Assembly: GCA_030584085.1 (NCBI GenBank)
Contig: CP129490.1
Span: 2,079,511-2,143,510 of the forward strand
Origin: Melioribacteraceae bacterium
GTDB taxonomy: Bacteria; Bacteroidota; Ignavibacteria; Ignavibacteriales; Melioribacteraceae
DNA: 64,000 bases
Direction: 5' to 3'
Each line of letters opens with the position of its first letter. Position 1 is the first letter of the stretch. Of this stretch, positions 17,150 to 27,850 are shown piece by piece. The position numbers and the translations under genes are program-made. The notes below the pieces were generated by a model. It was given only the letters and a program-made list of their open reading frames with translations, searched no databases and was not told the DNA's origin.

Positions 17150-17922
17150 GTTTTGATCATTTACCGGAAGAATTAATTAATATCATTTCCGATAATACTT
17201 CGGGAAGCCGTGAATTACTGGATAAAATTTTGCATTATCTAAGAAACAATCATGATAAGATAAATCCAAAATTAATTTCATCTTTACAAAAACACTTTCA
17301 CGATTTTCAAACAATTCAAAATTTCCTTGCTAATCTCGGAGCTGCGTATCAAGAAAATTCAATCAAGGAATTTTTGAATAAATATAATAACGATATTTTA
17401 TTCCACAATATTTACAGATCCTTCAAACCACTCATTTCGGATTTATACTCATTTATAACCATTTCAAATAGCAAAACAATTTTAGAGATATTGAAGTTAA
17501 CTGCTTCAGAGAAAGAATCAATCGAAGTGATTGTTAGTGAAGGCAGACCGATTCTTGAAGGAAGAATTTTAGCAGAAAATTTAAGTTCTCCGAAAATTAA
17601 GACTACATTGATAACAGAAGCACAAATTTATAATGCAGTACAAAATGTTGATTGTGGCATTATCGGGGCTGACAAAGTATTAAAAAATGGTAAAGTAATT
17701 AATAAAGTCGGAAGTAATTTACTAGCATTAGCTTGTAAAGAATTCTGTAAACCCTTTTATGTTATTGCTGATAAAACAAAATTCAGTAAAAACAATTTGA
17801 TCGACAACAATGAGAAGCCTAGTAAAGAAATCTATTCTGGAACAGAGAATAAAATAAAAATTAATAACTATTATTTTGAAGAAATACCTAATGAATATAT
17901 AACGAAAATTATAACCGATTAG
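17146..17922 (+). CDS. eIF2B alpha/beta/delta-family protein (sugar-phosphate isomerase-like)
   Basis: 258 residues. The C-terminal half matches the eIF2B/MtnA/ribose-1,5-bisphosphate isomerase family: IEVIVSEGRPILEGRILAE is broken into EGRPxxEG, then DCGIIGADKVLKNGKVINK (the conserved GAD), and KVGSNLLALACKEFCKPFYV. The N-terminal ~90 residues are a variable helical region. Bacterial members are metabolic isomerases, so a role on a ribose phosphate is likely, but the exact reaction is not readable. It overlaps the universal stress gene by 4 nt and ends this plus-strand run. Confidence 0.8.
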   Translation: MSFDHLPEELINIISDNTSGSRELLDKILHYLRNNHDKINPKLISSLQKHFHDFQTIQNFLANLGAAYQENSIKEFLNKYNNDILFHNIYRSFKPLISDLYSFITISNSKTILEILKLTASEKESIEVIVSEGRPILEGRILAENLSSPKIKTTLITEAQIYNAVQNVDCGIIGADKVLKNGKVINKVGSNLLALACKEFCKPFYVIADKTKFSKNNLIDNNEKPSKEIYSGTENKIKINNYYFEEIPNEYITKIITD

Positions 17923-17983: not shown

Positions 17984-19585
17984 TTATCTGAATCGTTTAG
18001 TTAAATTAACAAATATTCTTCCAAAACTATCAGTTTCTTCAAACGCACCTTCGTAACTCATGTTTAAGTAAATTGAATCACTAAATTTGACAGATAAATT
18101 CGATTCAAAAATATTTTGTTTTAAATCCGATAACCCGGATGTAAAATTATATACCAAATTTCTATAGCTCAGACCAAGATTTAGTAATCCATCAAATAAA
18201 TCCTTGTATATCCGCACACCAATTATTTTTCCATCTAAATAGTTAGTCATCAAGTAATTACCGCTTACGGTTATGGATGAATTAATAAAGGGCACTCGGG
18301 AATACGTGATGCTTCCATCATAATTTTTTGTCGGTTCATTATCTCCCGGAACATACCTATAACCGGTCCCAAAATTTAACATCAAGTAATTTATAGGTTT
18401 AACTGTAACTCTTAATCTCAAACCCTGCCGGGTTTCGGATTCAAGGATACTATCTGCTACTGATTTATAAGTTTCATAATAAACTACATTTTTTCTTGCA
18501 TCATAAGAGGCTGTAAGAGAAATAAATCGTGATGGTGAATACCGGGAAGAAAAATAAAAACTCGTTAAATCAAATACACTTTTTCCCTCCCCTTTTTCTC
18601 TTTTATATAAATCCACTTCAGTTGAAAAGAATATATCGATATTTTCTATAACATTATTTGAATGCTGGAAGTATAAAAATCTTCTGTCTGTTTTGAAATT
18701 ATTTGTCTGCTGAAATAATGCAAATGAGTTTTTCATTATCTTATTGTTAATCGAATCAGTGCGAGCAATGTATCCTCCGTATTCAAAAAGCTTTGCATTA
18801 TAACCGAAATCCGAAAAATGAGGGCGGGAACCGATCACCAAACCATAATCAAAATAATCTACTTTCGATTCAAACTGAACACCGTCAATTGTACTAATGT
18901 TTGCCAAATTTGAATTGATTCTTCTACCAAACCAGATATTAGTTTCATTATTAAAATCATATTTAAACGCTAGGTTATATATCTTCAATGCAGTCATTAA
19001 ATTATTCTCTACTCTTCGCCATTCGTGAGTACGGTAAGAAAATGTTACATAACTTGTCATAGATAAACTTGAGCCGCCTATATTCTCGTAATTTAATGAA
19101 GACCTATACTTCCACCTTTGAGTGTTAATCGATTTTTCTCTGTTTGTCAGGTTCGAATAAGATGTTACTCCTATTCTCCCATAAAATCTTGATTCCTTTC
19201 CTTCAACTTCTGCTGATATCTCTTGAATTTTAATTTCCTCGGAAGTTTCGGTAATAATAGGTTTATCTATTTCTTTATTTACAATTTTTTCAGGCTGAAT
19301 TTTAGGTTGATACTTACGATAAACAATCGAACCGACATTCAAATCAATTGAAGGCTCAACAGCGCACGAAGTTGAAGAAAGAAATTTTACTGTTCCCGCA
19401 ACCTTATATTGGTTATTTTTTAAAGTAAAAACAGAATCGCCTACTTCCAGCCAATCAAAATTTTCGAATCGAATGTAGATATGCTCCGCAGATTTGTAGG
19501 TCACTTCACCATTAATGTAAGTAACCGTCTGTGCAAGTAACGGTAAAAAAGTTAATATAATTATTAAAACCAGTTTCTTCATCAA
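17984..19585 (-). CDS. outer-membrane beta-barrel protein of the multihaem cytochrome operon
   Basis: 533 residues with a signal peptide (about 1-18, ending LLAQ). Residues 20-85 look like a small SH3-like beta domain (TYINGEVTYKS, DSVFTLKNNQYKVAGTVKF). A linker rich in Glu, Pro and Lys follows, and from about residue 130 to the end there are alternating amphipathic strands rich in Tyr and Phe, closing with FVNLTKRFR. This is a barrel pattern without a family I recognise. It has no CXXCH. It is the last gene of the operon and overlaps the 43-haem cytochrome gene by 4 nt, which suggests that it houses or anchors a cytochrome in the outer membrane, like MtrB or Pcc porins; that is inference. 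Confidence 0.7.
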   Translation of the reverse strand: MMKKLVLIIILTFLPLLAQTVTYINGEVTYKSAEHIYIRFENFDWLEVGDSVFTLKNNQYKVAGTVKFLSSTSCAVEPSIDLNVGSIVYRKYQPKIQPEKIVNKEIDKPIITETSEEIKIQEISAEVEGKESRFYGRIGVTSYSNLTNREKSINTQRWKYRSSLNYENIGGSSLSMTSYVTFSYRTHEWRRVENNLMTALKIYNLAFKYDFNNETNIWFGRRINSNLANISTIDGVQFESKVDYFDYGLVIGSRPHFSDFGYNAKLFEYGGYIARTDSINNKIMKNSFALFQQTNNFKTDRRFLYFQHSNNVIENIDIFFSTEVDLYKREKGEGKSVFDLTSFYFSSRYSPSRFISLTASYDARKNVVYYETYKSVADSILESETRQGLRLRVTVKPINYLMLNFGTGYRYVPGDNEPTKNYDGSITYSRVPFINSSITVSGNYLMTNYLDGKIIGVRIYKDLFDGLLNLGLSYRNLVYNFTSGLSDLKQNIFESNLSVKFSDSIYLNMSYEGAFEETDSFGRIFVNLTKRFR

Positions 19586-22500
19586 AACTCACTATCTTTT
19601 AAACTTGGGAATGTAACGTTACCTGCTTTACCGTCAGGGTGACATTCATAACATGCTACGCTTTCATAAACATACCCACTTACATCATTGTGTTTACTAT
19701 CCATTTCAGTCTGATTATGCTCGTGACAATCAATACATGAGAATACTGAATAATTTGCTGCATTCGTATGACAATCGCTGCACGAATTCCACTCATTTTG
19801 ATGTTCGCCGGAATAAATCGGGAAATACTGTCCATCGTGATTAAACGTAGATGGCTCCCATGCATTTTGAGAATGACATTGCTCACAATCGGTTGGAAAT
19901 TGCGCTGCCGAGTGAGACGGATCAGTTGTTGAATTATAATCACTTTGATGACATTGAAAACATGTGTTTGGCGTATTATTGTAATCACCGTTGTGACAAT
20001 CAATACAGTTACTACTAATTGCAGCATGTGCACCTATCAACTGATAGAAATTATCATGAACAGGAAATTCAGCCGGACTCCAATCAGGGTTAGTCGTGTG
20101 ACAATCATCGCATTGAGTTCCTAATCCGATTTGTTGATGGTCCGGATTGGATGATAAGTTAAAATCATTCGTGTGGCAATCATAACAAACTGTGCTTGTT
20201 CCTGAAAATCCATCGCTATGGCAGCTAGCGCAACTCTCACCAATATGCGCGCCGGTTAAAGGAAAATTTGTACCGTTATGATCAAACGTGGTTTCTTGCC
20301 AACTAGTTGTTACGTGGCATTGTTCACAAGCGGTAGGATAACCTAAAGACGAATGATCAGGAGCGATTGAGTAATCATTTTCATGGCAAGCAAAACAAAT
20401 ATTTTGAGTTGTTGAGACATCGGTTGTATGACAACTCGAACAATCGGGAATCTGATGCCCACCAATTAATTCAAATCCAGTTGTTGAGTGATTAAAAGTA
20501 GAAGGAATCCATACATCTGTTGAGTGACATTCTTCACAGGTTTGCGATAGAACTAATATTGAGTGAGAAGGATTTTGGCTTGAATTGTAATTATTATTAT
20601 GGCAATCAAAGCACAAACTTGAAGTGCCGAGATAACCGTTCTGATGACAATCTTCGCACAGAAGATTTGTATGTGCACCGGTTAAAGGAAAGTTTGAATT
20701 TGCGTGATTGAAAGCCCCTTCTGCTGTTCCGTTAGGGTGGCAGGCAAAACATTCTTGACTTAGAAAAACATAACCTTCAACTCCTGTATGTTCGTTATCC
20801 ATATCAGTTTTATTGTGCTCGTGACAATTAGTACAAACAAATTCACTATAATTATTTTGATTTGTATGACAATCCGAACATGCATTCCATTCACCATTAT
20901 GCTCACCGGAATATATTGGGAAGAATTGAGCATCATGGTCAAATGTTGCTGGTGTCCAAGAAGTTTCATTATGACAAACTTCGCAATCAGTAGTAAAACC
21001 TGCAGATCGATGTGCAGGGTCAGTTGTTGAATCATAATCAGATTCATGACAACCGATACATTGATTTGGTGTAGTATTATAATCAATTGTATGACAATCG
21101 GCGCAACTTGGAACAGTGAGATGAGCTCCTAATAAAACAAAATAATCATTGTGATTTGGAAACTGAGCAGGGCTCCAACCAGGATCCGTCGTATGGCATT
21201 CATCACATTGATTTGATAAACCTAAATTTTGATGATTAGGATTCATTGCGGAATTGAATTCATCCGTGTGACAATAAAAACATAAAGTAGAAGTTCCTTC
21301 AAATCCGGCAGAATGACAATCGCTACAAATTTGAGTAACATGTGCACCTGTTAGCGGGAAATTAGTATTACTATGATTAAATGTCGATACTTCCCAAGCT
21401 GTTGTTGAATGACATCGTTCGCAATCCATCGGATAACCTAACGATGTGTGATCAGGTGCGTTTAAATAATCATCTTGATGACAATCTTCGCAAAGTATCG
21501 ATGTACCTTGATAACCTGAAATATGACAAGCCTGACAATCAACTGTTATATGTGAACCGGTGAGTGGGAAATTGGTAGTATTATGGTTGAATCCCCCCTC
21601 ACCCGAACCCGTCGGATGACATGATAGACAAGCAGAACTTTCATAGATATAACCGTTTATTCCAATATGCTCGTCATCCATATCTGTTTTGTTATGTTCA
21701 TGACAATTGGTACAGCTAAACACGGCATAATTGTTTGCATCTATGTGACAATCCGAACATGCACTCCATTCACCGTTATGTTCACCAGAATATATTGGGA
21801 AGAATTGTGCATCATGGTCAAACGTTGCCGGTGTCCAGGCATTTTGAGAATGACATTCTTCACAATTGGTTGAAAAATTTAATGTAATGTGCGATGGATT
21901 AGTCGTTGAATTATAATCAGATTCATGACATCCAATACATTGGTTAGGAGTATTGTTATAACCCGTTGAGTGACATTGATTACAATCCGAAGCGATAGCA
22001 GCATGAGCCCCTATTAAAGGATAAATATCATTGTGATTTGCAAAAGTGGCCGGACTCCATCCGGGATTTAATGAATGACAAATTGAACAATCAGTATCAA
22101 ATCCTAAAGCAACGTGGTTAATTATTTGTGCATTTTCATAATCAGCTTGATGACATTGAAAGCATTCCGAATTTAACTCGCTAAAGGTATTTTGTGAATG
22201 ACATTCAAAACAATTGCTTATCTGATGTCCACCTATTAACGGAAAAAATTCGTGTGCAAATGCAGCCACCGACCATTCAGAATCCGTTAAACTATGGCAT
22301 TCTTCACAATCGGTTGAAAAACCAGACAAAGCATGATTTGGATTCAGTGTACTGTTGTAATCCACTTTATGGCAATCATAACAAGCTGAACCAAGCGGTT
22401 CAAATCGTAGATCTGAAACGGATATATGACAATCTTCACAATCAGCAATCGCATGATTGCCAACTAAAGGGAATCTACCTAAGTCATGAATTTCCTTAAT

Positions 22501-22830
22501 ATTTGTTACTACCCAACTATTATTATTATGACAAACTTCACACTCAGTTCCTACTGTCGTTTCATGAATATCAAAATGACATTCGAAACAATTATTATTT
22601 ACATTCTTAAATACAAGCGATTCATGACAGTCGGTACAATTTACAATTTTATGCTGTCCCAATAATTCAAATTTGGTTTGAGAATGGTCAAAGGAAATTT
22701 TATCAAAGTCAACCTTCCAGCTTTGTGCAGTATGACATATGCTGCAATCGAGAGAAAAGCCATCGCCGTGCGGCGCTTGTGCCATTAGAGAAAGTGAAAA
22801 CAGCACTAAGATGAATGACAGTTTATACAT
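19582..22830 (-). CDS. giant multihaem c-type cytochrome (about 43 haem motifs)
   Basis: 1082 residues with a signal peptide (about 1-18, ending SLMAQ). I count 43 CXXCH haem-attachment motifs, roughly one per 25 residues, with interspersed distal His (FDH, GAH, NH). The protein is modular: units with FPLTGAH...CxxCH...CxxCHxxDY...CExCH...WxPxxF repeat along its length, and a longer block containing IYSGEHN...CSDCH...CHEHN occurs three times. No lipobox and no membrane segment beyond the signal peptide. It should be exported through Sec, receive haem in the periplasm, and form a long electron-conducting wire. It overlaps the neighbouring 20-haem gene by 25 nt and the barrel gene by 4 nt. Confidence 0.9.
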   Translation of the reverse strand: MYKLSFILVLFSLSLMAQAPHGDGFSLDCSICHTAQSWKVDFDKISFDHSQTKFELLGQHKIVNCTDCHESLVFKNVNNNCFECHFDIHETTVGTECEVCHNNNSWVVTNIKEIHDLGRFPLVGNHAIADCEDCHISVSDLRFEPLGSACYDCHKVDYNSTLNPNHALSGFSTDCEECHSLTDSEWSVAAFAHEFFPLIGGHQISNCFECHSQNTFSELNSECFQCHQADYENAQIINHVALGFDTDCSICHSLNPGWSPATFANHNDIYPLIGAHAAIASDCNQCHSTGYNNTPNQCIGCHESDYNSTTNPSHITLNFSTNCEECHSQNAWTPATFDHDAQFFPIYSGEHNGEWSACSDCHIDANNYAVFSCTNCHEHNKTDMDDEHIGINGYIYESSACLSCHPTGSGEGGFNHNTTNFPLTGSHITVDCQACHISGYQGTSILCEDCHQDDYLNAPDHTSLGYPMDCERCHSTTAWEVSTFNHSNTNFPLTGAHVTQICSDCHSAGFEGTSTLCFYCHTDEFNSAMNPNHQNLGLSNQCDECHTTDPGWSPAQFPNHNDYFVLLGAHLTVPSCADCHTIDYNTTPNQCIGCHESDYDSTTDPAHRSAGFTTDCEVCHNETSWTPATFDHDAQFFPIYSGEHNGEWNACSDCHTNQNNYSEFVCTNCHEHNKTDMDNEHTGVEGYVFLSQECFACHPNGTAEGAFNHANSNFPLTGAHTNLLCEDCHQNGYLGTSSLCFDCHNNNYNSSQNPSHSILVLSQTCEECHSTDVWIPSTFNHSTTGFELIGGHQIPDCSSCHTTDVSTTQNICFACHENDYSIAPDHSSLGYPTACEQCHVTTSWQETTFDHNGTNFPLTGAHIGESCASCHSDGFSGTSTVCYDCHTNDFNLSSNPDHQQIGLGTQCDDCHTTNPDWSPAEFPVHDNFYQLIGAHAAISSNCIDCHNGDYNNTPNTCFQCHQSDYNSTTDPSHSAAQFPTDCEQCHSQNAWEPSTFNHDGQYFPIYSGEHQNEWNSCSDCHTNAANYSVFSCIDCHEHNQTEMDSKHNDVSGYVYESVACYECHPDGKAGNVTFPSLKDSEF
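19677..21830. repeat. three long homologous repeats inside the 43-haem gene
   Basis: The segments 19677-19853, 20775-20951 and 21654-21830 align without gaps at their core (offsets 1098 and 879 nt, both multiples of three). Copies 2 and 3 are close at DNA level; for instance TATATTGGGAAGAATTG is identical at 20912 and 21791. They encode the block ending CHEHNKTDMD. The third copy is more diverged. Confidence 0.8.
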
Positions 22831-24383
22831 TTTATCTCTTCAAATTTATATTTGACAAATTTTCCTACCGGTGTTTCAATTTGCTTATGGCATTCTTGGC
22901 AATTGACTTTTGAATGTGCGCCCCCTAAAGGAAACAAAGTATTCGAATGATCGAATTTTTTAGGAAGCCAGCTATAAGAAGTATGGCATCTTTCACAATT
23001 TGTTTTACCCTCAACTTTAAACTGATTAAAATGCACATCATTATGACAGCTTTCACAAGCCATTTGTAAATTTTCAAAATTTTGCTTGAATTCTTTATCA
23101 CTTTTCTCAAAATGACAATCTGAACATAAAATTTCTTTATGCTTCCCTTCTAACCTAAAATTTGTTCTACTATGATCAAATTCAACATCGCTCCATAGTG
23201 TCGTATTATGACATTGTTCGCAATTTTCATCAGTTAAAAACTTTGTTTGCATGAATCCTTTATGAATATTTTCATGACATTGGATACAATTTACATTTGT
23301 AAATCGAAATTGATGGACTTCATTTTTCTTATGGCAAAAGAAACAGGGTAAAGCAAGATGGCTTCCGTTTAATGGGAATCGAGTTTTTTGATGAAGTTCC
23401 AAAGTAAAAGTAGAAGGCATGAATCCAAGTTCTGTATGGCACTGCGAACAATCTTTGGTTTGTCCGTTCGCAGAAAATTCACCTTTATGATAATCATTAT
23501 GGCAATCAATACATTTTTCATGCTTCGGTTTAGTTGACAGAGTAGTCTTATGACAATCTTTGCATCCAACCAATTGATGACGACCAATTAATGGGAAATT
23601 TGTCTTTGCGTGGTCAAAATTATCTATGTTTTTTATTTTGGTAAAAGAAACGGTTGAATGGCAATCTTCGCAAGTTTGTCCAAATTTTCCCTTGTGAGTA
23701 TCTTCATGACAATCAATACATCTATCAAACTGCAATCCAGCGAATAGTTGGAAACTAGAATTATTCCTAATTTCAATTTTATGGCAGTCCTTACACTGAA
23801 CATTAATGTGAGCACCCGTCAGTTTGAATTTTGCAGTATCGTGATTAAATTTTTGTGCAGGTATAAACTTTTCGGTATTATGACACGTTTCACAGTTACG
23901 ACTTAATGTACCTTGATGATAATCATTGTGACAAGTGATGCAGTTTTGTGATAAACCAAAAAAGGTCCCCTTTTTATTCTTGTAATCCTCAAGTAGGATA
24001 AATTTTGTAGTATGACAATCACCACATTCTATGGAAGAATGTTTACCGGTCAAATTAAATCCAGTTGCCGAATGATCGAATGTATTTCTATCAAAACGAA
24101 TTATTTCAAATTTTCTTCCGTGATGCTCGCTGTGGCATGTATAGCATTTTTCTGGTTTTACCATCGGATGAGAGTGATAACCGGAATTGGTTTGCAGAGA
24201 ATTTCTTATATCCGAATGACAATCCAGACACTTCTCATTTTTAACCTCTTCTCCCAGCTCATGGCACTTTGTGCAATTGCTAATTCCTTCGAGGTGCTTG
24301 TGTGCCTCAGTCAAATCTCCCGGTGAAATTTGTGCTAATAGGGAGACGGAAAACACTAATAATATATATAAATACTTTTTCAC
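22806..24383 (-). CDS. multihaem c-type cytochrome (about 20 haem motifs)
   Basis: 525 residues with a signal peptide (about 1-18, ending LLAQ). I count 20 CXXCH motifs from C37 (CTKCH) to the last residues (CINCHSS). Spacer units such as FDHSATGFNLTGKH and FPLGGAHSKVNCQECH match those of the 43-haem neighbour, so the two share ancestry. This one is richer in Lys and looks basic. Likely a periplasmic electron carrier between the membrane cytochrome b and the larger cytochrome; the direction of flow is inferred. It overlaps the oxidoreductase gene upstream by 4 nt (ATGA) and the 43-haem gene by 25 nt. Confidence 0.9.
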   Translation of the reverse strand: MKKYLYILLVFSVSLLAQISPGDLTEAHKHLEGISNCTKCHELGEEVKNEKCLDCHSDIRNSLQTNSGYHSHPMVKPEKCYTCHSEHHGRKFEIIRFDRNTFDHSATGFNLTGKHSSIECGDCHTTKFILLEDYKNKKGTFFGLSQNCITCHNDYHQGTLSRNCETCHNTEKFIPAQKFNHDTAKFKLTGAHINVQCKDCHKIEIRNNSSFQLFAGLQFDRCIDCHEDTHKGKFGQTCEDCHSTVSFTKIKNIDNFDHAKTNFPLIGRHQLVGCKDCHKTTLSTKPKHEKCIDCHNDYHKGEFSANGQTKDCSQCHTELGFMPSTFTLELHQKTRFPLNGSHLALPCFFCHKKNEVHQFRFTNVNCIQCHENIHKGFMQTKFLTDENCEQCHNTTLWSDVEFDHSRTNFRLEGKHKEILCSDCHFEKSDKEFKQNFENLQMACESCHNDVHFNQFKVEGKTNCERCHTSYSWLPKKFDHSNTLFPLGGAHSKVNCQECHKQIETPVGKFVKYKFEEIKCINCHSS

Positions 24384-25720
24384 TCCTTTCGATGGGTTAA
24401 AACGGTTTCTCCATACTTTTTCGTAATTTCTATTCCAATCGATTCTAAAAACTTATTAGGTAATTCACCACCAACAAAAACATAAACCAAGTTGTTGTTA
24501 ATTTCCAGGACTTTTTCATCATTAGAAGTAACAAGTAAAACCGAATCATCTTTAATCTCTTTAACGTTTGAATTTAGAATCACATCAATTGATTTTTCTT
24601 TCAAGGCACTCTCCAATTTTTCAAGATTACGTGGCTTTAATCTGTTAAACGAATCACCTCGATAAGAAAGAGTAACTTTGTTATTTTCTTCAGAAAGTAG
24701 CAAAGCTGATTCTATTGCAGAATCGCCCCCTCCAACAATCAAAATATTTTTATTGTGTATATGTTCAGGTTCCAATAAACGATAATAAACTTTCGGTTTG
24801 TTTTCTCCAGGTACACCTAATTTGCGAGGACTGCCTCTTCTTCCAATGGCTAGTAAAATTGTGGCCACACTAAATTTTCCTTTTGATGTTTCTATATCAA
24901 AAATTTCATTTTTTTTTAGGATCGACTGAACTTTTTCTTCCTCGCTGATTGTAATCTTGTTTTTTATGAGTACATTTTTCCAAAGTTCTAAAAGTTCATC
25001 TTTGCTTGTTTCTACAAGTTTGATTTTACCATAGAGTGGTAAATCCATTGGAGAAGTCATAATAATTTTTGCCCTAGGGAATGAATAAATTGTCCCACCT
25101 AAAGTATCTTGTTCGACAGTCTTATATTTTAATCCAAGTTCCTGAGCTTTTAATGTTGCCGATATACCGGCAGGACCTGCACCAACTATTAGCAAATCAT
25201 ATTCTGCCTTATGCTTTTTATTGAGAGAATAATAAATATTTTCAACAGCTTGTTTCCCCTGTTCTACTGCATTTTTAATTAAGCCCATTCCGCCGAGTTC
25301 ACCAGCAATGTAAACGTTTTCAACATTGGTCATAAATTTTTGGGAAACGTGAGGAAGTTCGACACCCCGCTTTTCAGTTCCCATCACGAGAGATATAGCC
25401 TCGACAGGGCAAGAGTGGAAACAAGCACCGTGACCAACGCATCTAGATGCATTAACCGGATTTCCCTTGCCGTTAACCAACCCAAGGATATCTAGTTCGG
25501 GACAAGCTTTCACGCAAGCACCGCTACCGATGCAAATATCATAATCTATAACTGGATGCAATGAAACAGGATCATGAAAACCAAGTGCTTTTGCCCGTTC
25601 AATCTTTTTTTCAACAACTTGTGATTTCTTTTTATTCTGACTTAGATAGAAATATATTATGCCACTGGCTAGAATAATTACAAATAGATACGCTGCGGTA
25701 TTTTCTAATATAACTTCCAA
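24380..25720 (-). CDS. membrane-anchored Fe-S / FAD-NAD(P) oxidoreductase
   Basis: 446 residues: an N-terminal membrane helix (about 9-27), a two-cluster ferredoxin-like domain, then a thioredoxin-reductase-like FAD/NAD(P) module. The FAD site is LLIVGAGPAGISA (about 176-188) and the NAD(P) site is ILIVGGGDSAIES. There is no CxxC redox pair, so it resembles YpdA or ferredoxin-NADP reductase, not thioredoxin reductase. Both ferredoxin motifs lack their second Cys: C63-S66-C69-C73 and C94-H97-C100-C104. It probably exchanges electrons between NAD(P)H and the cytochrome b or quinone pool for the operon. 4 nt after the TPR gene. Confidence 0.85.
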   Translation of the reverse strand: MEVILENTAAYLFVIILASGIIYFYLSQNKKKSQVVEKKIERAKALGFHDPVSLHPVIDYDICIGSGACVKACPELDILGLVNGKGNPVNASRCVGHGACFHSCPVEAISLVMGTEKRGVELPHVSQKFMTNVENVYIAGELGGMGLIKNAVEQGKQAVENIYYSLNKKHKAEYDLLIVGAGPAGISATLKAQELGLKYKTVEQDTLGGTIYSFPRAKIIMTSPMDLPLYGKIKLVETSKDELLELWKNVLIKNKITISEEEKVQSILKKNEIFDIETSKGKFSVATILLAIGRRGSPRKLGVPGENKPKVYYRLLEPEHIHNKNILIVGGGDSAIESALLLSEENNKVTLSYRGDSFNRLKPRNLEKLESALKEKSIDVILNSNVKEIKDDSVLLVTSNDEKVLEINNNLVYVFVGGELPNKFLESIGIEITKKYGETVLTHRKE

Positions 25721-25724
25721 TTTC

Positions 25725-26318
25725 TCAATTCAAGTTTTGTAAAGAAGAGCTAGCAATTTTTGCAGCTTCACTCGTGGGATACTCAGTCATTACTTTTTCC
25801 CAAATCTCTTTTGCTTTGACTAGATTACCAAGTGCTGCTTCAATAGCACCTAAATTATATTGAACATCGGGTGAGTCCGGTTCTTTTGCCAGAACTGCTT
25901 CCATTTGTTTTTTCGCTTCGGTAAAGTTTTGCATATTGTAGTAAACTGTGGCAACTTCGAGTCGGATATCTGTTCTTCCTGAATCAAATTCTAATATTTT
26001 ATTATATACCTCCAATGCTTCATCTGGCTGATGTGCTGCCGCTAATAACCGTGCATATTCAAGAGCATTTAGAGTATCGGAAGGATTATTCTCATATCCT
26101 GCTTTTAGACGAGCCATGTTCTCTTTAAATTCACTTGAAACATTTCCGCTGCCCGGTGCATTCCCGAGATTTTGATGAATATCATCCTGCGGTAATTGAG
26201 ATTGGTTTGTATTCCCTTGAAATGAAGAAGATGAGGTATCTTCCGAAGTTATTAATACTAGTGAAATAATAATAATTATAAAAGCACCAAGATATATGTG
26301 AATAGGTCTTATTTTCAT
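25725..26318 (-). CDS. TPR-repeat protein with N-terminal membrane anchor
   Basis: 197 residues: a membrane helix or signal anchor (about 6-24), a low-complexity Ser/Gln/Asn linker, then about three tetratricopeptide repeats (YENNPSDTLNALEYARLLA, VYNKILEFDSG, PDSPDVQYNLGAIEAALGN). It has no catalytic motif and is likely a periplasmic or membrane-surface scaffold. Its place inside the cytochrome operon suggests a job in assembling or maturing the complex, like the TPR protein CcmH/NrfG family, but that is inference. 12 nt after the cytochrome b gene. Confidence 0.75.
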   Translation of the reverse strand: MKIRPIHIYLGAFIIIIISLVLITSEDTSSSSFQGNTNQSQLPQDDIHQNLGNAPGSGNVSSEFKENMARLKAGYENNPSDTLNALEYARLLAAAHQPDEALEVYNKILEFDSGRTDIRLEVATVYYNMQNFTEAKKQMEAVLAKEPDSPDVQYNLGAIEAALGNLVKAKEIWEKVMTEYPTSEAAKIASSSLQNLN

Positions 26319-26330
26319 TTTTACTCCTTT

Positions 26331-27203
26331 TTAGAAAATCCATTTATAACCGAATGCCAATGTTACTCCAACATGAACTAACATTATTATTAACATAATT
26401 ATTGCAAACGGTAAATGAAAGATGTGCCAATACCTAAAGATACTTTGCATTGATCTCAAAAGTTTTATCCTTCTATTGAGAGTCAGTTTAGTTTTGGTAA
26501 GCTTTAAAATTGTTTTTTTGTTTTGTTTTGAAACTTTATTGTAGGTTAAATTTTTATTCACTTTATAAAGTATTTTTGAAGTTATCCAATATCCTTTCAG
26601 AAGAAATGTAAAAATACCGCTCTCGGATTTCATATAATTTTTAAAATCAAAATTATTTATTTCATCTTTTAGATCTTGAGAAAGACCTTTTTCCCCTTCT
26701 AATTTCTCAGCCATTTCTTCATCAATTAATCTGAGTTCGTTCAACGATAATTCTTTACCCGAAATACTTCGAGGAATTTGAATATAAATATATCTTCCAA
26801 TAACACCACTTAAAACAACGGCGATCATACTCCAAAAGCTTACAGCAACAATTCCACCGAACTTGAATGCAGTATGAAATAAAACAAACATAGGACCAAC
26901 ACTGCACAAAAAAATGTGAAATTCGAGCCAATGTTTTAACAAACCAATTCTTCCGAATTGTCTTATTCTTTTTCTAGCAATATAAACTCCAACTCCGATG
27001 AGCATCATTAATGAACCAATAATTCCAAGACCGTGCCCTACTGAACCGCTCGGTTTTAAAGAAGTGTGTGAAGGATTAAAAAATCTTTCTTCTAGAGAGG
27101 TGGTATAGTAATCAAATCCGTTATAAATTAACAAGACAAACGAGGCAACACCTGCTAAAATGAAAACTCCAACATAAAGATTATGCTGCGTCTTAGTCAT
27201 CAA
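26331..27203 (-). CDS. putative dihaem b-type membrane cytochrome
   Basis: 290 residues with five hydrophobic helices (about 9-29, 55-76, 90-113, 118-142 and 258-286) and a cytoplasmic basic stretch at 205-250. Two helices each carry a His pair spaced 14 residues apart, H96/H110 and H263/H277, the usual geometry for two bis-His haem b stacked across the membrane. Extra His at 57, 91 and 260 sit near membrane edges. I do not recognise a named family, so cytochrome b is a structural inference. As first gene of the operon it would be the quinone-linked membrane module feeding the multihaem proteins. Confidence 0.6.
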   Translation of the reverse strand: MMTKTQHNLYVGVFILAGVASFVLLIYNGFDYYTTSLEERFFNPSHTSLKPSGSVGHGLGIIGSLMMLIGVGVYIARKRIRQFGRIGLLKHWLEFHIFLCSVGPMFVLFHTAFKFGGIVAVSFWSMIAVVLSGVIGRYIYIQIPRSISGKELSLNELRLIDEEMAEKLEGEKGLSQDLKDEINNFDFKNYMKSESGIFTFLLKGYWITSKILYKVNKNLTYNKVSKQNKKTILKLTKTKLTLNRRIKLLRSMQSIFRYWHIFHLPFAIIMLIIMLVHVGVTLAFGYKWIF

Positions 27204-27406: not shown

Positions 27407-27850
27407 ATGATCAAGAAAAAACTATCTATATTATTTCTAATTTCTCTCTTTACAATATCCACAACAGGAATGCCAGTAATAGCTCATTTCTGCGGTTCGA
27501 TGGATTCAATCAGTTTCTGGGACTCGATTCAATTTGGGGAAGAATGTGCAATGCATTCTCCAAAGGTTGAAGAAGTTTCTTGCTGTGAGTCTGAAACTGA
27601 TGAACTTTCCACACTGATGAAGTATATAGACAATTGCTGCCAAGATTTGATTGTTGATAATTCGATAAAAGACACATTCCTTTCTTCCAAAACTCAACTG
27701 AATATTGCAAACGAAGTTTTTTCATTGCTTTCATCTGAAAGTTTTGATACTGAGTTAAACTTAACAAGAAATGAATTTTTTAATGTTCACTCTCCCCCAC
27801 TGATTTCAAGTAATAAAATCTATCTCTCCATTTCCGTATTTCTAATTTGA
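27407..27850 (+). CDS. HYC_CC_PP-type small exported protein of the copper locus
   Basis: 147 residues with a signal peptide (about 1-25). It carries the ordered signature of the HYC_CC_PP family: HFC at 27-29 (Phe in place of Tyr), CC at 59-60, a second CC at 77-78, and PP at 130-131 in SPPLISSNKIYL near the end. Such proteins occur beside heavy-metal efflux genes in Bacteroidota, and the paired Cys suggest Cu or Ag binding, but no biochemical role is established. Here it opens the copper cluster. Confidence 0.75.
   Translation: MIKKKLSILFLISLFTISTTGMPVIAHFCGSMDSISFWDSIQFGEECAMHSPKVEEVSCCESETDELSTLMKYIDNCCQDLIVDNSIKDTFLSSKTQLNIANEVFSLLSSESFDTELNLTRNEFFNVHSPPLISSNKIYLSISVFLI

Follow-up and report, generated by a model that had tools for sequence, protein, structure and literature searches.

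A conserved Bacteroidota operon of PCC3-like layout: a candidate trans-envelope electron conduit with a dedicated flavoprotein

Introduction

The products of a conserved operon, analysed here in a Melioribacteraceae bacterium, probably form a trans-envelope electron conduit. Its core consists of five recurring genes, encoding a dihaem cytochrome b with five transmembrane (TM) helices, a flavoprotein, a cytochrome of about 20 haems, a giant cytochrome and an outer-membrane barrel. In gene content and order, in haem numbers and in the motifs of the inner-membrane protein, four of the five agree with PCC3 as published, and for these the composition is not the unprecedented one that the initial annotation had taken it to be. 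The fifth, the flavoprotein, is an obligate partner that is absent from published PCC3 and new here; it makes the Bacteroidota operon distinct. With moderate confidence, the operon is read as a complete conduit laid out like PCC3, to which the Bacteroidota version would add a cytoplasmic redox enzyme of its own.

Although Bacteroidota abound in soil, sediment, wastewater and marine habitats, they have seldom been credited with a defined extracellular electron pathway. The flavoprotein bears on a question raised by PCC3 itself, namely the electron entry or exit point at the inner membrane.

The operon and its boundaries

The window, that is the whole stretch of DNA analysed, covers 64,000 nucleotides of contig CP129490.1 (positions 2,079,511 to 2,143,510), the single contig of a 3.74 Mb genome. 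Six neighbouring open reading frames (ORFs), all on the minus strand, had been described in it, and their coordinates were checked to the base:

26331..27203, minus strand: inner-membrane dihaem cytochrome b (IMP) with five TM helices (74-sequence alignment, model helices)
25725..26318, minus strand: TPR protein, membrane-anchored, accessory and separable (Pfam; survival alone in genome G062)
24380..25720, minus strand: flavoprotein with an N-terminal TM anchor, a two-cluster ferredoxin and a circularly permuted TrxR/YpdA-like FAD-NAD(P) domain (Pfam, NCBIfam, permutation tests, motif survey of 94 homologues)
22806..24383, minus strand: 20-haem cytochrome c with a signal peptide, presumed periplasmic (motif counts, homologues)
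19582..22830, minus strand: 43-haem cytochrome c of 1 + 14 triheme units (motif counts, haem spacing, homologues)
17984..19585, minus strand: outer-membrane beta-barrel with a signal peptide (AlphaFold2 model)

Recomputed from the coordinates, the spacings are exactly those first given, with gaps of +12 and +4 nt followed by overlaps of 4, 25 and 4 nt. The likely starts of cytochrome b and of the barrel are the ATG codons at 27200 and 19582, not the TTG codons upstream, in agreement with the family alignments. The operon is an isolated directional unit, since it is bounded by a divergent gene at 27407 (+) and a convergent gene ending at 17922 (+). The spacing suggests that the six genes are co-transcribed. 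Consensus scans for a promoter or terminator at the operon gave nothing above chance; the Bacteroidota promoter consensus occurs at chance level in the window, with no match upstream of the operon.

The unit had been proposed to comprise all six genes. Five of them are indeed conserved together, but the TPR gene proved separable. It is absent from most Bacteroidia clusters and, in a genome of the same genus (G062, contig C10, locus L181), it is the only one left: the site is kept, with flanks 72 to 91% identical, all five redox genes are missing, and an intact TPR gene stands alone between about 5704 and 6447. This pattern implies two losses, or a single one that spared the TPR gene. The TPR protein was accordingly dropped as an obligate part, and is best described as an assistant to a unit of five genes. 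Its profile matches (TPR_19, 3.7e-20; TPR_CcmH_CycH, 4.8e-6, below the Pfam cut-off) make it weakly CcmH/NrfG-like, so that it perhaps assists in cytochrome c assembly. A fused CcsBA-type assembly gene lies nearby in some clusters.

Conservation across Bacteroidota

Confidence in the gene set and in its conservation is very high. The search for synteny suggested in the initial annotation showed that the same order is widespread in related genomes: it recurs in independent genomes at 37-67% protein identity, far above chance. A flavoprotein match was found in 35 of the 79 family genomes, one of which has a distant paralogue only (38% identity), leaving 34. All family neighbourhoods uncut by a contig end have the order IMP-(TPR)-flavoprotein-MHC20-MHCbig-barrel, MHC standing for multihaem cytochrome. 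A scan of 84,980 species returned at least 577 relatives, and the best 80 of these, from Ignavibacteria, Bacteroidales, Saprospiraceae, Cytophagia and similar groups, nearly all show the same order. The exceptions are few, one locus having no giant cytochrome following (L105) and three having altered or extra cytochromes (L087, L118, L119). A barrel unrelated to the cytochromes had been named as fatal to the conduit reading; the barrel of this operon type is in fact always linked to them.

A wider sample of 392 phylum genomes, drawn around the lineage of the source genome, contains the IMP in 39, the flavoprotein in 34 (strict cut-off) and the barrel in 34. The five-gene set, found in about one in ten of these genomes, can serve as a marker. 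Among the five IMP genomes without a strict flavoprotein match, four have a divergent copy adjoining the cluster and the fifth (G202) is decayed. The idea that these four use another partner was rejected, each carrying a more divergent copy of the same flavoprotein. This protein accompanies the intact IMP in 38 of 38 genomes. A second gene order, seen in about 12 fetched loci, places the flavoprotein last instead of second while keeping the same five genes. Co-occurrence together with retention through two gene orders argues strongly for the flavoprotein as a part of the conduit.

Some individual loci deserve mention. The decaying remnant in G202 (contig C56, locus L171, 8017-9136) consists of an IMP with internal stops beside a 94-residue barrel end. 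The apparent absence of the operon from a genome of the same species (G060) is an assembly gap and not a real loss; the barrel and 43-haem genes are present on one contig of that assembly, as is a fragment of the 20-haem gene. Directly after the barrel, about 10 loci (for example L114:19105-19839) have a conserved gene for a lipoprotein-like product of about 245 residues, which is seen in this place in many Bacteroidia clusters.

Relation to PCC3 and other conduits

PCC3 was proposed by He et al. in 2017 as a four-gene cluster of Proteobacteria, and its function is still hypothetical (PMC5566968). It is also treated in a study of the Gallionellaceae pangenome (PMC10734462). The order IMP, periplasmic MHC, extracellular MHC, porin is that of Slit_1446-1449 (PMC12016527). 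The PCC3 periplasmic MHC has a median of 21 haems, and the extracellular one a median of 34 with up to 85. The Bacteroidota cytochromes, with 20 or 23 and 13 to at least 90 haems, stand in the PCC3 order, the flavoprotein being inserted or last. The IMP likewise shows the PCC3 features, i.e., about 300 residues, five TM helices, SGxxG on TM4 and two Wx3Hx13H motifs on TM3 and TM5. PCC3 differs in that neither a flavoprotein nor a TPR protein is reported, and in that it is reported from Proteobacteria only; no report of PCC3 in Bacteroidota was found in the literature. The PCC3 porins are predicted to have up to 42 strands by topology predictions, whereas 22 are seen here in one model with a pTM of 0.61. 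Compared with PCC3 by its published description, the Bacteroidota operon is likely to be a member.

An outer-membrane barrel combined with multihaem cytochromes also recalls MtrCAB/MtoAB and the Geobacter OmbB-OmaB-OmcB conduit. However, the haems number 20 and 43 here, not 10, 8 or 12, and dedicated inner-membrane and cytoplasmic enzymes are encoded in the same operon. The MtrB-type barrel with decahaem MtrA that defines MtrAB/MtoAB is not seen, the 20-haem protein scoring 43.8 bits against the DmsE/MtrA family, whose cut-off is 192.2 bits. Ignavibacteria have been reported to possess OmbB-like complexes and one MtrB-like complex.

The flavoprotein

The TM anchor occupies about the first 30 residues of the flavoprotein and is followed by a ferredoxin domain (55-112), then by the FAD/NAD(P) domain. 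The TrxR-fold iron-sulphur flavoprotein recognised at the outset is supported by this layout. Motif I of the ferredoxin domain reads CxxSxxCxxxCP and motif II CxxHxxCxxxCP. The latter is found in 94 of 94 homologues; in motif I, proteins of the window type mostly have S or T, and 8 of the 14 distant or additional homologues have C. A missing second cysteine is known from [3Fe-4S] ferredoxins. The two Fe-S clusters would thus be unusual, as judged from the motifs through which they are presumably bound. The FAD and NAD(P) motifs are kept in 92 and 93 of the 94 homologues, respectively, and the redox-active CxxC of thioredoxin reductase is absent from all 94.

The FAD/NAD(P) domain resembles YpdA/Bdr and other TrxR-type reductases, with TIGR04018 as its best profile. 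It differs from them in its fusion with a TM anchor and a ferredoxin domain, in the absence of CxxC and in its domain order. Thioredoxin reductase has the order FAD, NAD(P), FAD C-terminal segment. The flavoprotein departs from this order, its GxGxxG motif coming only after the C-terminal FAD segment (about 125-165, TNVENVYIAGELGG...). When this segment is moved to the C terminus, the TIGR04018 match, which had covered profile positions 1-268, reaches 1-314 of 316, and that to TrxR grows from 1-251 to 1-294 of 300; the score gains from restoring the usual order are only 8 and 3 bits, respectively. A profile search of Bdr found the same two blocks in swapped order. Aligned with the C-terminal end of a normal TrxR-like protein encoded in the same genome, the segment scores 62, compared with a mean of 22.6 (sd 4.5) and a best value of 55 in 5000 shuffles; an earlier control had given one tie in 2000. 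On the evidence of its sequence, the protein is thus circularly permuted. A limited literature search found no ferredoxin fused to a permuted TrxR-like protein.

An 834-residue paralogue (L151:7527-10028) has a similar FAD/NAD(P) domain, apparently also permuted, fused to Fer4_5 and Fer4 iron-sulphur domains.

The inner-membrane cytochrome b

The IMP matched no Pfam family, and the assignment as a dihaem cytochrome b, made from the start, is supported by its conserved histidines. The ligand candidates are H95 and H109 on TM3 and H262 and H276 on TM5, with SGxxG on TM4. Over 74 homologues, the invariant positions include H95, H109, S131, G132, G135, W258, H259, H262 and H276, and W91 is nearly invariant. 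Two Wx3Hx13H motifs (W91/H95/H109 and W258/H262/H276) together with SGxxG (S131-G135) occur in 73 of the 74, and the corresponding helices are present in the model. Judging by positively charged stretches at residues 76-90 and 150-250, the loops joining TM2 to TM3 and TM4 to TM5 are probably cytoplasmic. H95 and H262 would then hold the inner haem, and H109 and H276 the outer one.

He et al. likened the PCC3/PCC4 IMP signature to ferric reductases and NADPH oxidases (NOX) (PMC5566968). Two Hx13H pairs on TM3 and TM5 are indeed shared with the NADPH oxidase/ferric reductase family (FRD, PF01794), as would be a cytoplasmic NAD(P)H flavoprotein as electron source. The differences are that the IMP has no match to PF01794 at E 0.1, that the flavoprotein is of the TrxR type with Fe-S clusters and not of the FNR type, and that the acceptor is a c-haem chain. 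Foldseek gave no match to the IMP model at E 0.001, and the top rows of VIA-align are ABC transporters (Z about 10), aligned over cytoplasmic helices. Assignment of the fold by structure search was thus abandoned: no convincing cytochrome b was retrieved, a result that neither supports nor excludes a NOX or bc1 relationship. A NOX-like or bc1-like architecture is argued from histidine spacing and topology only, since the model matched no known cytochrome b. A sequence search of solved structures gave nothing useful.

Shorter homologous IMPs, with 24-34% identity, are encoded on Proteobacterial plasmids. They directly follow a FAD_binding_6/NAD_binding_1/Fer2 protein and directly precede a c-type cytochrome gene; the Acetobacter neighbourhood is similar by annotation, with an unannotated next gene. 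The position next to this membrane protein is therefore taken by two unrelated types of NAD(P)H flavoprotein, a pattern that suggests an NAD(P)H-coupled, NOX-like inner-membrane step.

On a plasmid of Alteromonas macleodii (L144), the IMP, an FNR-type reductase and a c3-family cytochrome adjoin a NiFe hydrogenase cluster. This context suggests a role for the IMP module as a transmembrane adaptor for NAD(P)H that can be reused.

The multihaem cytochromes and the barrel

Recounting confirmed 20 and 43 CxxCH motifs in the two cytochromes, and none in the other four operon genes. As the cysteines number 40 and 86, every one of them sits in a haem motif. The description of both proteins as giant repeat cytochromes is also supported. 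Haem spacing in the larger one follows 1 + 14 x (31-35, 15-19, 23-28 residues), the first unit being irregular, and this regularity is far above chance. Among complete homologues, 41 of 43 have 3n+1 haems (C(x2-4)CH motifs; one third would be expected by chance, and p is about 1e-17 without correction for relatedness). Complete ORFs range from 13 to 82 haems, the maximum being that of Phaeodactylibacter xiamenensis, and one truncated ORF has at least 90. The smaller cytochrome has 20 or 23 haems in most homologues. The giant cytochrome thus appears to vary by copy number of a triheme module. The module principle is known, module-wise change having been noted before for Burkholderiales and Chloroflexi MHCs; a strict 3n+1 rule across a phylum is, as far as can be told, new, and provides a natural length series for haem-wire studies.

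The two cytochromes would lie in the periplasm and outside the cell, respectively. Surface exposure of the giant cytochrome is assumed, since neither a lipobox nor another surface-export signal was recognised in it. A sequence search of solved structures with either cytochrome gave nothing useful, and no match to a solved cytochrome nanowire.

The same genome contains a second cytochrome/barrel locus (L146, G000 contig 1, about 692.7-703.9 kb), with 7-, 14-, 4-, 16- and 19-haem proteins, a 421-residue barrel candidate and a cytochrome b561-type protein. It includes a 16-haem/cytochrome b561 fusion, a type of protein that serves in quinol oxidation, and is a probable quinol-linked extracellular electron pathway.

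At E 0.1, neither Pfam nor NCBIfam gave a match for the barrel. Its AlphaFold2 model (mean pLDDT 80.6, pTM 0.61) shows a small N-terminal beta domain (about 21-91), a linker and a 22-stranded barrel (about 131-531). The model aligns best with outer-membrane barrels, including 22-stranded TonB-dependent receptors (best alignment Z 19.0, rmsd 4.6, 329 residues), and MtrB stands at rank 39 of its Foldseek list. At the level of the model, this likeness is one of shared shape and indicates no function.

Proposed electron route and alternatives

Electrons would pass from NAD(P)H to FAD and then to the two Fe-S clusters of the membrane-anchored flavoprotein, from these to the pair of b haems that the IMP would stack across the inner membrane, and on to the 20-haem cytochrome spanning the periplasm. 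The last carrier, facing an extracellular partner, would be the giant cytochrome of triheme repeats, lodged in the 22-stranded barrel or attached to it. The protein-protein contacts along this route are putative, and the wire spanning the whole envelope looks as if it holds about 65 haems. The inner-membrane step would be NOX/ferric-reductase-like, in that a dihaem membrane domain with bis-histidine ligation would receive electrons from a cytoplasmic NAD(P)H flavoprotein, with the difference that this flavoprotein is unrelated to the NOX type and of the permuted TrxR type. The length of the giant cytochrome would shift by whole triheme modules while the rest of the conduit stays fixed, so that its reach or charge capacity can vary.

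The flavoprotein, as an extra cytoplasmic enzyme, may join the wire directly to NAD(P)H. As far as its sequence goes, it points to an NAD(P)H rather than a quinone link, and NAD(P)H coupling is somewhat favoured as the main entry or exit point. The broader proposal of a phylum-wide wire from NAD(P)H to the surface that bypasses the quinone pool, combining a NOX-like IMP, a permuted ferredoxin-TrxR flavoprotein and a surface cytochrome tuned by triheme number, is put forward tentatively. For PCC3/PCC4 IMPs, He et al. proposed quinone exchange, by analogy to cytochrome bc1 (PMC5566968), and the Sideroxydans PCC3 clusters have four genes with no flavoprotein. On that model the IMP would be quinone-active here as well, and the flavoprotein an auxiliary in regulation, repair or side entry. 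This seems rather unlikely in view of a flavoprotein that is present in every intact Bacteroidota cluster and follows it through rearrangement, of Proteobacterial IMPs paired with a different NAD(P)H reductase, and of the separate 16-haem/cytochrome b561 fusion locus in the same genome.

As regards direction, outward flow from NAD(P)H is slightly preferred because the inside-negative membrane potential would favour it, with no energy input needed. An energy-conserving role is not obvious, since such export would dissipate the membrane potential. The operon is found in cultured Cytophagia and Saprospiria genera such as Emticicia, Lacihabitans and Phaeodactylibacter, which are mainly aerobic and in which extracellular respiration is less expected. 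This fact, together with the proposal of PCC3 for Fe(II) oxidisers (PMC5566968), would suit electron uptake, in which electrons taken from Fe(II), minerals or partner cells would flow inwards to NAD(P)+ and draw on the membrane potential. Published Melioribacteraceae physiology mentions Fe(III) reduction, and uptake is considered improbable.

Giant haem proteins of Saprospiraceae have been noted as undescribed, with very many haem motifs, and a capacitor role was suggested for them; the portions of that study dealing with these proteins count motifs and treat neither operon nor partner genes (PMC11495043). That the giant cytochrome serves chiefly to store charge or to wire cells together, and is exported or anchored by the barrel instead of spanning the outer membrane, would fit this suggestion and the range of haem numbers among unchanged partner genes, but has little probability given a barrel that nearly always adjoins the giant cytochrome and, at the modelled 22 strands, would be wide enough for a plug-sized domain.

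Cultured hosts suitable for tests of the conduit include Emticicia oligotrophica, Phaeodactylibacter xiamenensis, Lacihabitans and Maribellus luteus. In E. oligotrophica, the 100-kb plasmid pEMTOL02 (L141) carries the whole operon, with 23 and 40 haems; upstream of it lies a fused CcsA/ResB assembly gene, and downstream a gene for a GW-domain protein.
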